A stretch of 50,150 nucleotides of DNA from Lawsonibacter sp. GTDB lineage: Bacteria > Bacillota > Clostridia > Oscillospirales > Oscillospiraceae. The notes under the pieces were generated by a model. That model did not search any database, was not told the DNA's origin, and worked only from the letters and a program-made list of their open reading frames with translations. Of this stretch, positions 22,377-30,314 are shown piece by piece (positions within the stretch are counted from its first letter, which is position 1; every line of letters starts with the position of its first letter). Location of the stretch: NCBI GenBank assembly GCA_022791995.1, contig JAAWAD010000013.1, forward strand, positions 1 to 50,150, given 5' to 3'. The position numbers and the translations under genes are program-made.

Positions 22377-23936
22377 CTATTTTGCTTCCAAAGCCAGGTC
22401 TCCTTCCCCACGGAGCCTGGAAAAAACAAACTGCCCTGACTCGCTCAGGTCCTCCTGCGTCCAGAGCACGTCTGAAGCGGTTCCGGGGCGGAGAGCGGCG
22501 GAGCTCTCTGCCTTATCACACAGGGACCAGTTGCACCAACTGATCCCGCGTTCCTCCAAAAAGTCCAGCCAATCCTCCGATTCTTTGACAAATACGCCGC
22601 CGCTGCCGTCCGCCTGGCTGGTCCCCCACTCGGAAACAAAGATGGGCAGACCAGCAGACAGCGCACTGTCCATCCGGTCCTGCAACCAACTCCCATGGGT
22701 TCCGGCATAGAAATGGAGGGTGTACATCAGATTCTCCCCCTCCAGGGGGGCCGCGGCAGCCAGGTGGATGTCCTGGCTCCAGGTGGGGCTACCAATCAGG
22801 ATGACCCCTTGGGAGTTAGCCCGGATGGCCGCCGCCACCCGCTGGGCGTAGGGCTTCACATCCTCGGCCCAGGATATATTCCCATTGGGCTCATTGCAGA
22901 TTTCATAAATCAAATTGGGACAGTCCCGATACAGCCAGGCTATCTCCCCAAAAAAGGATTCTGCCTCTGCCACACGGTCCATAGGATTGCCGTCGGACAG
23001 AATGTGCCAATCCAAAATGACATACATATCCCGGGAAATGGCCGCTTCAATCGCCTTTACCGCCCGCTGACGCATCTCTTCCGGCCGGCTGAGATATCCT
23101 CCTTCTTCGGTGTACATGGCGACCCGAAACAGGTTGGCCCCAAAATCTGCTGTGTTTCCAATGGCTTGGGCCTGAGCAAACTGGGAATACCACTGGAGAC
23201 CGTGGCTGCTCATCCCTCGCAGAACAACAGGCTCCCCCGCTTCATTACACAACTGGGTTCCCTTCACCTGTAGCCAACCGTTTTGCGAGACGCTCCCCGC
23301 AGCAGATACAGCCGGCTTTGAAATGGACTCAGGTCCAGGTACCGGCTGGGTTGTTTTTTTCGCCTTTGCCACAGCCTGCTGGAACATAACGCAGGCCTCC
23401 GCCCGAGTCAGACTGCTGTCCGGGCGGAAATTTCCCTCGGCGTCTCCCGAGATCACACCGCTGGCATAGGCGGCCAGCACCGCCGAATAATAGTGGCCAT
23501 CCAACTGGACAAAGTCCTGAATTTTCTGGGATTGGGTGACATAGTCCCCCTGGGCCTGGGGCAGCAGGGCCTTCATCAGGATTTTCACCGCCAGCTTTCG
23601 GGAAATGGGCTGATCGAACCGCTCCCCTGTGGGAGGAAGCTCATCCCAGTCGTACCATCCCGCTTGAAGCGCGGCCTCCAGGTCCCCTGCTGCCCAGTGT
23701 TCCGCCTGCCCCTGGACCGGATCTATCCCGGCACAGCGGGCTGTCAGGGTGACAAACTCAGCGGCGGACACGGTTCTGTTTGGACGGAAGGTCCCGTCCG
23801 AATAGCCAGAAACCCAGCCGGCTTGAGCCATTTCATCCACTGGCCTGGCGTACCAGCTGCCAGCCTCTACATCTGAAAACCCTGCCAGAAGCCCGCACAA
23901 AGACAGCAGAAACAGAAGCACTCCCAATTTTTTCAC
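22377..23936 (-). CDS. SLH-anchored family GH5 glycoside hydrolase (cellulase-like)
   Basis: This 519-residue secreted protein has a signal peptide (residues 1-19), then SLH repeats near 20-62 and 145-195 with a degenerate one between, a Pro/Ser linker, and a GH5 barrel from about 215. E349 in the ICNEPNG motif is the predicted acid/base and E436 in VSEWGTS the nucleophile. HILSDGNP and TLHFYAGTH fit GH5 (subfamily-2-like) endoglucanases. The start is GTG 23936, since the overlapping ATG is out of frame. GGGAGG lies 5 nt upstream. SLH domains would hold it on secondary cell-wall polymer, displaying a beta-glucan-cleaving enzyme. It has its own promoter, after the terminator of the preceding operon. 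The substrate is inferred from the family only. Confidence 0.9.
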   Translation of the reverse strand: MKKLGVLLFLLSLCGLLAGFSDVEAGSWYARPVDEMAQAGWVSGYSDGTFRPNRTVSAAEFVTLTARCAGIDPVQGQAEHWAAGDLEAALQAGWYDWDELPPTGERFDQPISRKLAVKILMKALLPQAQGDYVTQSQKIQDFVQLDGHYYSAVLAAYASGVISGDAEGNFRPDSSLTRAEACVMFQQAVAKAKKTTQPVPGPESISKPAVSAAGSVSQNGWLQVKGTQLCNEAGEPVVLRGMSSHGLQWYSQFAQAQAIGNTADFGANLFRVAMYTEEGGYLSRPEEMRQRAVKAIEAAISRDMYVILDWHILSDGNPMDRVAEAESFFGEIAWLYRDCPNLIYEICNEPNGNISWAEDVKPYAQRVAAAIRANSQGVILIGSPTWSQDIHLAAAAPLEGENLMYTLHFYAGTHGSWLQDRMDSALSAGLPIFVSEWGTSQADGSGGVFVKESEDWLDFLEERGISWCNWSLCDKAESSAALRPGTASDVLWTQEDLSESGQFVFSRLRGEGDLALEAK

Positions 23937-24033: not shown

Positions 24034-25344
24034 TTATCCTGCAATTACGTTTTCACAAAAACCTTTAAGGATCACAGCCGCCTGGGCCCGAGTGGCCCTC
24101 CCGGCGGGGCTGAGGGTGTCGGGGCTGGTGCCGCTGATGAGACCCCGGGCCACCGCCCACTCCACTGCCTCCAGGGCGTAGGTGCTGATCTCCCCCCGGT
24201 CGGCAAAGGCGGACAGGTCGGCCTCTGCCGCCACGTCCTTCCCCTGGAGTCTGGCGTAGCCCCGCAGAATCAGGGCCAGCTGCTCCCGGGTGATGGGGTC
24301 GTTAGGGCCAAACCGGCCGTCTCCATAGCCGCTGACCACCCCGTTGGCGGCGGCCCAGGCCACCGCCTTGGCAAACCAGTCAGAGGAGGACACGTCGTCA
24401 AACCGGGCCGTTCCGGCAGCCGGCTTTCCCTCCAGGCTGTAGAGGATGGTAACAATCATCCCGCGGCTTGTCGTCTGGTCCGGGGTAAAGATATCCTCCC
24501 CGGAACCCGACATGATTCCCTTCTCATAGGCGTACCGCACAGCCTCGTAAAACCAGCTGTCCTGGGGCACATCGATGAAGGGCAGCGGGGCGCCGCCCCC
24601 CTCCTCCAGGGCGAAGGTCCCCTGGACCTTTACCCCGGCTGCCGGCATGGTGAAGGTGTAGGTCCCCTTCTCCTTTTCAGTGAGAGGAACCTCCTTCTTC
24701 CCGGCGGTAACGGTCAGGCCGGTGAGGGTCCAGCCTGCGTCCGGCTTCACGGTAAGGGTGACAGTCTCTCCCTTCTGCGCACTGGTGGGGGTGACCCGAA
24801 TGGTCCCGTGCCGCCCGGACTCAATTTGGATGGTATAGCCGGATTCTCCATTTCCCTCGCTGCCCGAGCCGCTGGAGGAGGACCCTCCAGGGCTTGGGTT
24901 GGATGTTGTACGACCGTCCAGAACGGCGGCGCTCTCCTGCGTTTTCCCGTCCTCTCCCCGCAGGTCGCGGTCCAGGAGCGTCACTTCCGCCTTTTGGGGC
25001 AGAGCACCATTTCCGATGCTCAGCTGGCCCAGAGCCACACTGCCCCCGCTGTTCAGATTTTGAGGGGAGTCCATATAGATGGTCATGGTGGTCTTACCGC
25101 CGCTGGTCTGGGCGGTACAGCAGCCGTAAGCCGTCCCCTGCCCAGCAGCGGTGAAGCTCTCCGCAGTATAGGTCCCATTCAGGGTAAGCTCCACCTGAAC
25201 GCCGTAGACCGGCTTATCCAGGTCCTGGAGGGTCAGCTGAGAGTTGGCGCTGTTTCCCTCCACCCGGAGGGAGACAGCACCCGTCGGCACAGCCGTCAGG
25301 GAAAGCGCCAGCAATACGGCCAGCAGTTGATTCCACTTTTTCAT
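24034..25344 (-). CDS. SLH surface protein with an N-terminal cohesin-like domain
   Basis: This 436-residue secreted protein has a signal peptide (1-23) and then a beta-rich domain (about 24-150). Its pattern, VYGVQVELTLNG followed later by TIYMDSPQNLNSGGSVALGQLSIG, resembles cohesins: an opening GxQFxLxYD-type strand and a late GxLATLTF strand. A Ser/Gly linker (150-165), a bacterial-repeat beta domain (168-245) and three well-formed SLH repeats (about 255-430) follow. Its ATG overlaps the stop of the dockerin-bearing protease gene by 4 nt. The SLH part is certain. The cohesin identity is inferred from pattern and from the dockerin next door. If right, this protein would be the cell-wall anchor for the protease. 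Confidence 0.8.
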   Translation of the reverse strand: MKKWNQLLAVLLALSLTAVPTGAVSLRVEGNSANSQLTLQDLDKPVYGVQVELTLNGTYTAESFTAAGQGTAYGCCTAQTSGGKTTMTIYMDSPQNLNSGGSVALGQLSIGNGALPQKAEVTLLDRDLRGEDGKTQESAAVLDGRTTSNPSPGGSSSSGSGSEGNGESGYTIQIESGRHGTIRVTPTSAQKGETVTLTVKPDAGWTLTGLTVTAGKKEVPLTEKEKGTYTFTMPAAGVKVQGTFALEEGGGAPLPFIDVPQDSWFYEAVRYAYEKGIMSGSGEDIFTPDQTTSRGMIVTILYSLEGKPAAGTARFDDVSSSDWFAKAVAWAAANGVVSGYGDGRFGPNDPITREQLALILRGYARLQGKDVAAEADLSAFADRGEISTYALEAVEWAVARGLISGTSPDTLSPAGRATRAQAAVILKGFCENVIAG

Positions 25345-28300
25345 GCTTCCTCTCCCTCCAGAACAATGGCAGGCAGATCAGCCCCTCCCGGGGTCTCAAT
25401 CCACATGGTCTCTGCCGTGGTCCGCTCCGCGTCCGCGCTGCCAGCCTGGCTGGTGCGCTTGAGCACCGCCTGCATCCGGCTGGGCAGCAGGTTCACGCCG
25501 TCGCATTTGCTGGTTTCTCCCTGAAGCTCCGCCTCTTTCTGAACGTTCGGAATGAAGAGGAACAGCCCGTCGCTGATGTCACTGACCAGGCCGTCGGCGT
25601 GGACCTCGGCAAAGACAAGGAGCTTGCCGTCCAGAGGCCGGATCTCCTCCGTCACCTCTCCCTCGTCCGTGGTCTCGGTGAAGCAACCCCGGAGCTCTAC
25701 GCTGGCAAAGACTGGGTTGCACCGATAGGTACCCGCAATGATCAAAGTGCCTGCCGGGATCACATCACCGGTCCCTTCGCCATAGCGGTACTCCTTTTCC
25801 AGCACGCCCACGGCCCCCTTCTCCAGGAATGCCACATCGTCTCCCGCATAGGAGATCAGCTGAATCTCGGTTCCGTCCGGCACACCGGTGACCGTAACCT
25901 TCTTCACGGTATAGGTCCAGATACGGGTGTCATCCGCCTGTGCGTTTTCTTTCTGGAAGTAGGCCAGCCTTCCGCCTCCGGCTCCCGGAATCAGATCGCC
26001 AAAGCTGCCTGTGCGGACACTGACTTCCTTGCTTTCCTCGTTATCCCCGCAGGTGACCTTCACCTCAAACATTCCTTCCGGCAAGCTCTCTGGGAATTTT
26101 ACACCGGAGACATCGGTAAGGCTGTTCAAAGTAAAGGTAACTGTGTTCCCATCCTGCACAACCGTGTACGCCTCCGCCGGAACGGTCTTGTCATAGGCGA
26201 TGCGGACATCTCCCGCCTCCGCTGTCTGGCCCACCTGGCCGCCCAGGGTGTCGTAGGCCTTCACCTGATAGGAGAAGACTCGATGGTTGGCAGAGCCGAT
26301 ATGGTCAGTGTAGGTAACCGGCTTCCCCTCCTCCGGGACCACAAAGGCGATGGGAACTCCGCCGCGCAGAATCTCATAGCCCTGAACCGCTCCGGTGATA
26401 CTGGGCGTGATGGTCACCACCACATCCTGCTCCCCGGACAGGGCCGCTTTCGCTGTCACTGTGCCGGCGGAGGCTGTTTTACCTGCCAGCCGGTCCCGGC
26501 GGCTTTGATCGCTGAGGTACCAGAGAGCCCGCTCCTCCGCGGGGTAGGTCTTCAGCTGGTCTGTCACCTGCTCGCTCAGGGTCATGCCCCAGCGGGTAAA
26601 GAACTCGGTCAGATCTTTCTTGGCCACACCGCAGGCGGTCAGGGCCACCTTTTCCTCGTAGGTATAGGCGCCGCCCTTGGTGTAGGTTCCCGCCTTCCAG
26701 TCCTTGAAGAACTGGTTGTAGAAGGCCATGGGAGACGCGCCGTTGTCATAGGCCAGATGGAGCTGCCAGTACATACCCAGCTGGACAAAGACATCGTTGG
26801 ACTCCCCGGGGTAACCCTGGGCAGTCTTGGTAAAGATGGCGGGGTATTTACCGCTCTTCTCCAGACGGGAGGCCAGGGTATTCTGCTTCCCGTCATAGGT
26901 CTGCACCATCAGAGAGTAGAGGTTGTTGGTGATCTCCGCCCGGCCCAGCTTGTCCATATTGTGGCCAATCTCGTGGGCGATGCCCCAGCCGAAGAGTTGG
27001 TTGGCGGTAGTGTTCGCCGGCAGACGGGAGATGGGCACACCTCCGGTCATGCCGCCGCAGGAGCGATAGCCGATGCCCACATGGTTCCCCGCCGCGTACA
27101 TGAAAGCTCCGGCAAACATCTGCATACACCGGATATTCTGGCGGGTGGTCATGTCGTTGTCTGCATAGGTCTTGTCGATGCCCTGAGTGGTCTTGCAAAT
27201 GTGCATCAGATCCTCCCAGGCCAGCACATTCTGGTAGAGGTTGTCCGCCAGGTTGGTCCCCTTCACGGTGCTGGCCGGGATGGACAGCAGCACAGTGGGC
27301 ATGGAAATCTCCGTCACATTCTTCCAGCTTGTGGTTGCGTTGGTGTTATTGATACCTTGTGCGGTTACATAAGCGCTCAGCTCATCCACATAGGCCTGAA
27401 TGACCTGTTTCCGGGCGGTCTCCTCCAGGCTGTACCAGTCGGACAGCTCCAGCACAGGAATTTTCACGGCCCGGCGGACATGGAAGGCCATATTCTCTGT
27501 CTTCGGTCCGCTGTAGGTAAAGTACAGGCTGCCCCCTCTGGGGGTGTTCTGGCTACCAATTTTGGGGATGGTCAAGATATTCCGGCCATTCTCCAGGACG
27601 CCCACCTGGGCCAACCAGGTGGAGGCCTCCGCGTTGTACTGAGAGGCATACACCGTCACCTTCCCCCCCTCGGGGATCTGCTGGACATAGATGGTAATTT
27701 CGTCGCCCGCTCCGGCTGCCACGCCCAGAGGCTGAAGCTCACTGCCCCCCTGGCCGTACTTCGTGCCGTCGGCAGCATTGCTTCGAGCAATGGGGTTGAA
27801 TCGGAGGGAGCCGTCCTCATACGGATACTCCACCTGACGCAGGACCGCGCCGCTGGACTTGCCGGCCAGCAGCTCCTGAGCCAGGGCCAGCTCGTCCTCC
27901 AGAACCTCCAGGTTCAGATAGTAATGCCGCTCGTCGCTGTCCAGCCGGGCCTTCAGCGCGTCAATCGCCGCCTGATCCACGCCAGTGTCCAGCGTGGTAT
28001 GCAGCTCGTCGGCAAAGAGGGCTGCAATGTTGTCCGGCAGGCTGCGGGACGGGTCGTATTCCATAAACATCAGTTCCGACAGGCTGATCTGGGTGTAATC
28101 CTGCTGCTCCACAGCCAAGCTGATCTTGGCAACATTCTTCACTGGCCCGAAGGGCAGAATGCCAAACCGCTGAACAGCCGCAGTGGAAAAATTGGGGATG
28201 TTGGGCCAGGTTCCCACCTCAGCATTGCTGGTACCGCCGTTATCAATTCCTCCCTTTTCCGGATCAGGAACCAGCAGCGTACCAGGGCCGTTCAGATCGT

Positions 28301-30314
28301 CCCCTTGATACCAGACCCGGACGCTATAGGCCCGCATGTTGGAGGGATAGCTCCCGTCCAGCCGCGGGACCCAGATGGCTGCGGACAGGTCCACTGGCTC
28401 TGTAAAGGTACAGATCACATGCTCGTTGCGCATAAAGTTGCTGGAGGCCGTCCAGTGGGTGTGGAAATCCCCATCGATCATATTTTCCGGCTTAAAGGGG
28501 GCGGCGGCAGTGTAAGACGCGCTGTCATAGTTCCCGGCATCCGCCAGACGAACGCTGGAAATTTTGCCGTTGTCCAGGATCCCCTCGGTAGGGATTCCCT
28601 CCGGACGGCTGTAATCGGTGGCCTCGGGGGTTCCCGACGAAATGCGGGAGGGGCTGCTCTTCCCAATCTCGTTCCCCGCTACCACATAGAGGTAGTATGT
28701 CGTGCCGTTGGTCAGACCGTCAATGGTCAGCGGAGCACTGGCCACCCGCCCCCCCGCCTGCCGGTAGGAGGCAATCGGGGCGTTTTCCTGGTCTGTATAG
28801 TACACCTCGTAATAGGTGGCCGTCTTACTGACCTTCCAGGAAACCCGGAGGCTGGCGTCCAGCTCGGCAACACTCACCATATCGGGAGCGTCAGGCGCTT
28901 TGGCGGGAAGGGGCGTGGCCTCTACCGCCTTACAGGTCTGCCCTGTCCAGTTCCCGTCCACCGGAGTCACCGTAAAGCAGTAGGTTTTCAGGTTCTCCAG
29001 ACCGGTAACCTGGGCTTTGGGCACATCCACTTGAAGGCGGCGGCGGGTGCTCTCCTTCTCCTTCTGCCAGTATTCCACCTGATAACCGGATACATTGGGC
29101 AGCTCCTTCCAGGTGAGAGCCGCCTGTGCGTCCCCTGCCTCGGCCCGCAGGCCAGTGACCTCCGTATTGGGCTCTGACAGATCCTCCGGTACAATATCCT
29201 TCAAAAACTGGACCGACTTTACCACGGCGTACCCCTGGTCATCTTCCGTTTTGGTCACAGTAATGGTAATGGTCTTCACCACCACCCGCTTCCCTAGGGA
29301 AATGGTAATCACGTTGCTGCCCGGGGTTGGATCCAAAGCATGGACTCCGGTGGGCACGGCCTTGCCTGTAGAGAAGTCAAAGGGACCATACACAGCCCCA
29401 CCGGCGTCCTCTACCGTAACGAAGCCAGCCAGAACCGCCCCTGCCCCAGTGTCTGGTGTGGCGACCTGCACCTCCTGGGCCTCTACGCCCTTCTCCAGCA
29501 CCAGTGGAATCACAATCTGATCCTTTTTCTCCGCATAGAAGGTTATGCTCTCCTCATTGTCCAGGAACAGATTGGAGAGGTCCCCCTGGAAGGTCGTACC
29601 ATCCATCTTCCCCACAGTCTTTTCCTGGTCCAGCGCCGGCGCAATGCAGACGGTCTCCTTCACCTCTGGCTGGGCCTGGGGAATCTGTAGATTCCGGTTG
29701 ACATATGCCAAATCGATAATATCAATTTTTCCGTCGCCGTTCAGATCGTATGTCTTTCGGTCCTCCGCTGTCTGGCTACCCAAGGCGGCGGACAGGGCGT
29801 TCCGATCTGTGGCATTCACAGTGCCGTCCCCGTTCAGGTCGCCCAGGGTGAAGGTGCCGTCTCCGGTTCCCACCTCCACATAGACATTGTAATCCTTTAC
29901 TGCAAAGCTGGTCTGACAGGTGCGGTAGCCCTGACCGGTAAACCGCAGTGTGTAGTTCCCCGGCTCCAGGCCATCCACCGTCAGGTCCAGAGCGCCTGGC
30001 GGAGTATTTCCGTTTAGCTCGCTGCCCTGCCAGTCCCGCTGGGTGACCTGTGCCGGACAGCCGCCCAAGCTCTTGCTGCCCGTCCGCGTCAGGTCCACCT
30101 TGCCCAGAAGCTTGCTCCCCTGAAACAGCTCCGCTTGAATCGTTCGATCCCGCAGCGTCTCAATGGTCTGGGCCCGGTCAATGCGCACGGTGGCTGACAG
30201 GCTGGCCCTGGCCGTGTCTGCCGTCTTGGATTCCGCCGCCAGAGAGGGGGGAAGCGCAGAAAACAGCATGGATGCCGCCAGCAAAACGGCAGGGATGCGT
30301 CTGTGTCTATACAT
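25341..30314 (-). CDS. Giant secreted M60-like metalloprotease with dockerin and FN3 domains
   Basis: This 1657-residue protein begins with a signal peptide (1-27), then a beta region and a complete type-I-like dockerin at about 157-210. The dockerin has two calcium loops, DLNGDGTVNATD and DLNGDGKIDIID, each with the following helix. Two fibronectin-III domains (about 384-468 and 474-563) and an F5/8C-like domain (about 585-770) come next. The M60/enhancin-type catalytic domain carries H1114-E-I-G-H1118, and E1127 gives HExxHx8E. Beta-sandwich domains complete the C-terminus. M60 proteases often act on mucin-type glycoproteins. ATG 30314 has AGGAG 9 nt upstream and a consensus promoter. Its stop overlaps the start of the SLH/cohesin-like gene. 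A host-mucin target is a family-level inference, not shown here. Confidence 0.9.
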   Translation of the reverse strand: MYRHRRIPAVLLAASMLFSALPPSLAAESKTADTARASLSATVRIDRAQTIETLRDRTIQAELFQGSKLLGKVDLTRTGSKSLGGCPAQVTQRDWQGSELNGNTPPGALDLTVDGLEPGNYTLRFTGQGYRTCQTSFAVKDYNVYVEVGTGDGTFTLGDLNGDGTVNATDRNALSAALGSQTAEDRKTYDLNGDGKIDIIDLAYVNRNLQIPQAQPEVKETVCIAPALDQEKTVGKMDGTTFQGDLSNLFLDNEESITFYAEKKDQIVIPLVLEKGVEAQEVQVATPDTGAGAVLAGFVTVEDAGGAVYGPFDFSTGKAVPTGVHALDPTPGSNVITISLGKRVVVKTITITVTKTEDDQGYAVVKSVQFLKDIVPEDLSEPNTEVTGLRAEAGDAQAALTWKELPNVSGYQVEYWQKEKESTRRRLQVDVPKAQVTGLENLKTYCFTVTPVDGNWTGQTCKAVEATPLPAKAPDAPDMVSVAELDASLRVSWKVSKTATYYEVYYTDQENAPIASYRQAGGRVASAPLTIDGLTNGTTYYLYVVAGNEIGKSSPSRISSGTPEATDYSRPEGIPTEGILDNGKISSVRLADAGNYDSASYTAAAPFKPENMIDGDFHTHWTASSNFMRNEHVICTFTEPVDLSAAIWVPRLDGSYPSNMRAYSVRVWYQGDDLNGPGTLLVPDPEKGGIDNGGTSNAEVGTWPNIPNFSTAAVQRFGILPFGPVKNVAKISLAVEQQDYTQISLSELMFMEYDPSRSLPDNIAALFADELHTTLDTGVDQAAIDALKARLDSDERHYYLNLEVLEDELALAQELLAGKSSGAVLRQVEYPYEDGSLRFNPIARSNAADGTKYGQGGSELQPLGVAAGAGDEITIYVQQIPEGGKVTVYASQYNAEASTWLAQVGVLENGRNILTIPKIGSQNTPRGGSLYFTYSGPKTENMAFHVRRAVKIPVLELSDWYSLEETARKQVIQAYVDELSAYVTAQGINNTNATTSWKNVTEISMPTVLLSIPASTVKGTNLADNLYQNVLAWEDLMHICKTTQGIDKTYADNDMTTRQNIRCMQMFAGAFMYAAGNHVGIGYRSCGGMTGGVPISRLPANTTANQLFGWGIAHEIGHNMDKLGRAEITNNLYSLMVQTYDGKQNTLASRLEKSGKYPAIFTKTAQGYPGESNDVFVQLGMYWQLHLAYDNGASPMAFYNQFFKDWKAGTYTKGGAYTYEEKVALTACGVAKKDLTEFFTRWGMTLSEQVTDQLKTYPAEERALWYLSDQSRRDRLAGKTASAGTVTAKAALSGEQDVVVTITPSITGAVQGYEILRGGVPIAFVVPEEGKPVTYTDHIGSANHRVFSYQVKAYDTLGGQVGQTAEAGDVRIAYDKTVPAEAYTVVQDGNTVTFTLNSLTDVSGVKFPESLPEGMFEVKVTCGDNEESKEVSVRTGSFGDLIPGAGGGRLAYFQKENAQADDTRIWTYTVKKVTVTGVPDGTEIQLISYAGDDVAFLEKGAVGVLEKEYRYGEGTGDVIPAGTLIIAGTYRCNPVFASVELRGCFTETTDEGEVTEEIRPLDGKLLVFAEVHADGLVSDISDGLFLFIPNVQKEAELQGETSKCDGVNLLPSRMQAVLKRTSQAGSADAERTTAETMWIETPGGADLPAIVLEGEEA
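29685..29846 (-). other. Dockerin domain within the M60 protease
   Basis: Two duplicated segments of about 24 residues each start with DLNGDG, the calcium-binding loop of dockerins. The first has TVNATDRNAL after the loop, the second KIDIIDLAYVNRNL. Asp at loop positions 1, 3, 5 and 12 is kept in both repeats apart from conservative change. It is N-terminal, which is less common than the usual C-terminal dockerin. Confidence 0.88.

Follow-up and report, generated by a model that had tools for sequence, protein, structure and literature searches.

The cohesin–dockerin interaction has been described in several settings that resemble the gene pair treated here, which lies in a 50,150-nucleotide stretch (hereafter the window) of a Lawsonibacter sp. 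genome (contig JAAWAD010000013.1, assembly GCA_022791995.1) and joins the gene of a dockerin-bearing M60-type metalloprotease to that of an SLH anchor protein. OlpA of Clostridium thermocellum has one cohesin. OlpA and OlpC each combine type I cohesin with SLH modules in a wall anchor, to which an enzyme with a dockerin can attach directly (PMC4045903 and PMC12811415). However, they belong to a full cellulosome genome and serve the dockerins of many enzymes, whereas the window pair has one dockerin, overlapping genes, an M60 protease as enzyme and a receptor missed by the Pfam cohesin model. Since small cohesin and SLH anchors have these precedents, the pair represents a variant and no new principle, and by analogy it would most likely work in the manner of OlpA/OlpC anchoring.

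Other systems share some of these features. In Clostridium perfringens, mucin-active enzymes carrying cohesins (X82) or dockerins form pairwise complexes without a scaffold, but the five cohesin proteins each harbour a GH domain (PMC12997984), whereas the cohesin-like domain of the window sits on a non-catalytic wall anchor. Cohesin–dockerin display of a peptidase is known from Ruminococcus flavefaciens, where an X-dockerin cysteine peptidase is held on the surface anchor ScaE (PMC12484212), although that enzyme is papain-like and the species produces cellulosomes. The Limousia mucinolysome, also from gut Firmicutes, displays mucin-active enzymes, dockerin peptidases included, by the same interaction, but it relies on multi-cohesin scaffoldins and a sortase anchor, and was detected by Pfam models (PMC12997984). 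By the method stated in that paper, genomes having only the window-type domain would be missed as far as cohesin is concerned; the words M60 and SLH have 0 occurrences in its main text. A 2012 domain table of PF13402 (M60-like) proteins already lists Dockerin type 1, with counts of 2 and 2, but no partner or anchor gene is named in the accessible part (PMC3267712). The titles and abstract beginnings listed in our literature search held no description of the pair; most subscription papers lay outside this scope, so that unpublished status is not implied.

The protease–anchor gene pair

Both genes are on the minus strand. The protease gene (25341..30314), identified by open reading frame (ORF) and Pfam analysis, codes for 1657 residues beginning with a signal peptide judged by eye. 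Residues 157-209 (29688..29846, minus strand) form a type I dockerin (Dockerin_1, PF00404; 43.7 bits against a cut-off of 22.9, E 3.3e-11), with two duplicated calcium loops, DLNGDGTVNATD and DLNGDGKIDIID, whose ligand positions are kept across 97 unique sequences. The Peptidase_M60 catalytic domain (PF13402; 79.1 bits against a cut-off of 25.8, E 5.2e-22) occupies residues 999-1243 (26586..27320, minus strand) and harbours an intact zinc motif, HEIGHNMDKLGRAE, made up of HEIGH, eight residues and a Glu (H1114, E1115, H1118 and E1127; 26934..26975, minus strand). This motif is invariant across 21 aligned proteins and fits the M60 pattern HEXXHX(8,28)E (PMC3267712). The closest solved relatives by sequence are M60 structures, e.g., 7jfs (4.4e-27) and the 'ZmpC Glycopeptidase' 6xsz. 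The designation mucin-type remains putative, being taken solely from membership in the M60 family.

The anchor gene (24034..25344, minus strand; ORF and Pfam) codes for 436 residues, comprising a signal peptide (residues ~1-23, judged by eye), a domain with a predicted cohesin fold (residues 24-151; 24892..25275, minus strand) and three SLH repeats as cell-wall anchor (residues ~254-430; 24055..24585, minus strand; PF00395 in three stretches, E 4.9e-39). At the junction GGAAGCATGAAA, read on the minus strand, the TGA stop of the protease is contained in an ATGA (25341..25344) whose ATG is the anchor start. ORF and Pfam analysis thus bears out the sequence-only reading of this locus with regard to the dockerin, the M60 domain, the three SLH repeats and the stop/start overlap. 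Its further claim, that no large scaffold is involved, is supported for this genome, a 2.18-Mb draft that is 80% complete: the sole dockerin found is that of the protease, no Pfam cohesin was matched at E 1, and the combination of a multi-cohesin scaffoldin and a set of dockerin enzymes that marks a cellulosome was not found.

We propose, with a probability of roughly 0.78, that the overlapping genes encode a private enzyme–anchor pair, in which a wall anchor with one cohesin-like receptor holds a protease with one dockerin. Signal peptides would export both proteins, the SLH repeats would fix the anchor to the cell wall, and its cohesin-fold domain would grip the second dockerin repeat through strands 8-3-6-5 in one orientation, so that each anchor would carry one M60 protease. 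We infer the binding, its 1:1 stoichiometry and single orientation, the surface display and the cleavage of host O-glycoproteins (mucin) from the genes, domains and overlap described above and from the predicted fold, cross-genome pairing, differing anchor ends and conserved surfaces described below. If true, this would point to Oscillospiraceae that display a mucin-type protease on their surface.

Pairing of the two genes in related genomes

A second collection was searched with the protease as query, and the best 80 of the 394 M60 relatives found were kept. In 76 of these 80 loci, the next gene carries the anchor N-terminal domain (three were recognised only on a second look), and on this ground the pairing is more than chance. 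Among the other four, three end at the contig, and in L181 the next gene codes for an SLH protein whose N-terminus is unmatched by the domain profile. The dockerin was found in 78 of the 80, the remaining two proteins starting after the dockerin at a contig end. A possible anchor start falls between -8 and +30 nucleotides from the M60 stop in 68 of the 76 loci, and exactly at -4 in 25, the start chosen being the one nearest to the stop that leaves 16-42 residues before the domain, which biases these figures to small distances. By path length on the tree, records of Oscillibacter, Flintibacter and Lawsonibacter are among the nearest M60 relatives; the pair is also found in a cultured relative, Flintibacter muris DSM 110149 (L125). 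In five loci (L170, L182, L191, L196 and L135) the M60 gene is in two frames or lacks its N-terminus while the anchor gene is kept; in L170 and L182 the dockerin and the catalytic part are split between different open frames. Sequencing error, decay or phase variation may account for such broken genes.

The reverse searches started from the domain and were blind to gene position. With the window domain as query, matches were obtained in 20 of 299 other family genomes, and 18 of the 20 are immediately preceded by an M60 gene; in 17 of these 18 the dockerin can be seen, and in one it is lost to a contig end. The other two matches are weak (L070, E 0.005; L071, 0.007) and lie elsewhere. A 77-member domain profile, whose members came from the loci retrieved with the protease, matched 36 of 300 family genomes, 33 of them strongly (E 1.7e-20 or better). 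The sequence-only reading had counted relatives keeping the anchor without a dockerin gene as evidence against itself. This was not the picture obtained: all 33 strong matches are directly downstream of an M60 gene, no strong relative away from such a gene being found in the family sample, and the dockerin is visible in 30, the M60 gene being cut by a contig end in G050 and G282 and its N-terminus lost in G118. Of the three weak profile matches, G216 comes after an M60 gene with a dockerin and has a hydrophobic stretch at its end, and the other two do not follow such a gene. The weak matches away from any M60 gene (L070 and L071, as above; L208 and L209, E ~0.002; L225, 0.0025) are outside the strong counts. 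Across 394 genomes of the order, a sample that overlaps the family sample so that the counts are not additive, 23 matches other than the window's own were obtained: 21 follow an M60 gene, and two, at E ~0.002, do not. Among the 21, the profile detects the dockerin in 19, inspection by eye reveals it in L207, and L191 has lost it. No anchor relative was found on viral contigs.

The order sample was also surveyed for M60 genes. PF13402 is present in 29 of the 394 genomes, corresponding to 31 genes once the two rows of one broken gene are merged. Twenty-five are of the dockerin type (G118, whose dockerin is lost, being assigned by its sequence relatives), and for 22 of them the profile identifies the domain gene as the next one. 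A weak match is present in the next gene of L210 (12.0 bits, reached by 0 of 200 shuffles) and L217 (6.4 bits, 1 of 200). In L211 (29-6769, plus strand), a natural fusion of 2246 residues unites dockerin, M60 domain and C-terminal SLH repeats, the dockerin being kept though the anchor is attached; the stretch between its M60 and SLH parts bears a weak, non-significant resemblance to the domain. Six of the 31 genes lack a dockerin, one of which ends at the contig. Around the remaining five, genes within 2.5 kb were put to the same permissive test, which gave nothing above 2.7 bits, a value coming from a 111-residue frame 2.2 kb from the M60 gene. The three dockerin-less genes placed on the tree have very long branches, and the contrast is therefore one between subfamilies and not between close kin.

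The receptor domain is common to the anchors, whose anchoring ends differ. Among the 76 anchors of the second collection, 66 carry SLH repeats (two of them cut), five a C-terminal membrane helix and two neither, three being cut off; membrane-helix anchors also occur in L205, L207, L210 and L224 (the last three by eye). When a tree of 100 M60 domains was labelled by anchor type (SLH, membrane helix or other, with six rows left unlabelled as the anchor was cut off or not seen), three changes had to be assumed for the membrane-helix label, at least two of them imposed by branches with good support, and likewise three for the SLH label, each one forced. One anchor with neither end, from Robinsoniella peoriensis (L158:15130-17172, plus strand), has repeats with cysteines and a terminal Ig-like part that by eye resembles Big_2. 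The arrangement recurs in many related gut bacteria, with a putative anchor socket so far unrecognised.

Fold, conserved surfaces and alternative explanations

No Pfam family exceeds its cut-off for residues 24-150 of the anchor, the sole match of the window domain being Invasin_D3 (E 0.38). The 77 members match 44 families, and the 25 of these that were listed do not include cohesin. The domain does not reach Pfam Cohesin (PF00963), and for this reason the pair is not filed under that family. An hhalign comparison with 28 cohesins from the family gave 7%, the top of ten domain comparisons, while a control pair of cohesins and B-repeat gave 27%. With a local cohesin HMM, the window domain scores 9.1 bits, above all 300 shuffles; the scores of the 77 members (median 1.6 bits) lie above those of five out of eight control domain sets, but three sets are not exceeded, and in two of these the median is higher (3.8 and 2.8 bits). 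A profile search of PDB sequences returned no match at E 10. On these results, membership in the cohesins by sequence homology is not claimed.

The predicted model of the domain adopts a cohesin-type fold, with C. perfringens cohesins as best cohesin matches, and agrees with the cohesin-like character that had been assigned to residues 24-150 by eye; CBM2 and GH20 N-terminal domains score equally. The domain is most likely a sequence-divergent cohesin-fold domain.

Faces of the domain were assigned from the order of the strands and the alternation of hydrophobic residues rather than from coordinates. Its conserved outward residues are Q50, T88, Y90 and L124, those of strands 3 and 6 being the most conserved (Q50, Q 0.89 and E 0.11; T88, 0.78; Y90, 0.90), and the 8-3-6-5 face is more conserved than the opposite one (mean 1.71 versus 0.92 bits, p 0.005, strand 5 not being conserved), positions having been picked after the profile was seen, so that the statistics serve as guides only. 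On the dockerin side, calcium ligands are kept in both repeats (3.38 and 3.82 bits), and positions of the recognition type, loop positions 11 and 12 being those which we take to be contact sites, reach 2.38 bits in the second repeat (I199, A203, Y204, N206) against 1.05 bits in the first. Repeat 2 being far more conserved than repeat 1 at these positions, one binding orientation is predicted. Sheet 8-3-6-5 is the protein-binding face of cohesins, and a single binding mode is reported for non-cellulosomal C. thermocellum dockerins placing single enzymes on the surface and for a C. perfringens pair (PMC5429695).

The alternative that survives best, unlikely as we consider it, is the following: the anchor domain would be a carbohydrate-binding (CBM2-like) module or a spacer bringing the cell to mucin, on which the protease encoded next to it would also act, and the dockerin would bind another, undetected partner. 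However, the window genome lacks a Pfam cohesin match, as do 28 of the 33 family genomes in which the domain was found, and the dockerin persists with its recognition side conserved. Moreover, the patch of conserved residues falls on the sheet that makes the cohesin contact and, with the exception of Y90, carries Q, T and E in place of aromatics.

Clearly less probable is that the dockerin acts inside the protease, as a calcium-stabilised spacer or through an intramolecular contact, the anchor holding another part of the enzyme. Other protease parts are also well conserved in the subfamily, and mutual information, computed from 97 unique pairs (38 effective), did not single out the dockerin as the partner, 110 of 154 sequence windows scoring higher, or 86 of 154 with face residues alone; the pair formed by protease N206 and anchor D92 is among the top 20 and does not count as evidence. 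Against this, both the matching fold and the conserved surfaces agree with a dockerin contact, dockerins being known ligands of the cohesin-type fold. Least probable of all, and hardly credible, is a secretion chaperone or an inhibitor that would hold the wall-bound protease in an inactive state up to its release. This would suit the gene overlap, also common for chaperone or inhibitor pairs, but explains neither the dockerin and the cohesin-type fold nor why most relatives retain an anchoring end, if not always one of the same type. A dockerin protease with a cohesin-like SLH partner, as first read from the sequence, is supported: it passed the check on relatives and that on domain fold, the latter with CBM2 and GH20 N-terminal domains scoring equally.

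Orphan dockerins and other features of the locus

Among the 300 family genomes, 133 contain a dockerin (E 0.001) and 95 a Pfam cohesin (E 0.01), and 47 have a dockerin without cohesin. The anchor domain is present in 24 of these 47 and would thus offer a partner to the dockerin in about half of the sampled genomes in which a cohesin is not recognised. From the remaining 23, ten dockerin loci were fetched, chosen among those with listed positions. Three of the ten have, as the next gene after that of the dockerin protein, one for an SLH protein that may contain a cohesin-like region; L227, L232 and L233, where the dockerin was not re-found by profile, were left out of the neighbour judgement. 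The three code for an S8 subtilase (L229:80-8791; SLH gene 18 nucleotides after; anchor 13.6 bits with the cohesin HMM), a metallophosphoesterase (L231:6869-10690; 87 nucleotides; 21.9 bits) and a protein with no assigned activity (L228:351-9264; longest frames overlapping; 36.6 bits). None of these scores was reached by 300 shuffles, and the HMM is unspecific at low scores; by sequence, the putative cohesin-like region is convincing only in L228 and perhaps in L231. A different dockerin protein, in a genome without Pfam cohesin match, has 495 residues, an HEMGH motif and a C-terminal dockerin (L230:9137-10624, minus strand), no SLH or similar anchor gene being noted directly beside it.

We consider the odds about even that many 'orphan' dockerins of gut Clostridia are halves of private enzyme–anchor pairs, with a diverged cohesin encoded by the adjacent anchor gene, and not cellulosome remnants. 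The M60 pair, if it works as proposed, would itself mean that a group of gut bacteria uses the cohesin–dockerin plug scaffold-free, with one enzyme per anchor and anchors ending in wall or membrane, and would expose a receptor family that Pfam-based cellulosome screens would miss.

A gene for a GH5 cellulase-type enzyme that itself has SLH repeats (22377-23936, minus strand) follows the anchor gene at a distance of 97 bp, and the window cell would thus seem to combine direct SLH fusion with the dockerin route. Its inclusion in the unit was rejected, no GH5 relative (E 1e-5) being present among the ORFs of loci L052-L076, L107-L186 and L187-L209. In the anchor, a divergent InlB B-repeat (Flg_new_2; residues 170-246; 24607..24837, minus strand), which some relatives lack, separates the receptor domain from the SLH repeats. 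The protease carries two fn3 (fibronectin type III) domains at residues ~386-470 and ~476-560 (28635..29159, minus strand), matched by Pfam in two stretches of which 476-560 is the best, the first also being placed by its match to solved structures, and a possible F5/8 type C domain at residues 599-672 (28299..28520, minus strand; 20.7 bits, below the Pfam cut-off of 28.2). Directly before the dockerin, residues 38-150 (29865..30203, minus strand) form a domain without a Pfam family above cut-off, which co-occurs with the dockerin in relatives.
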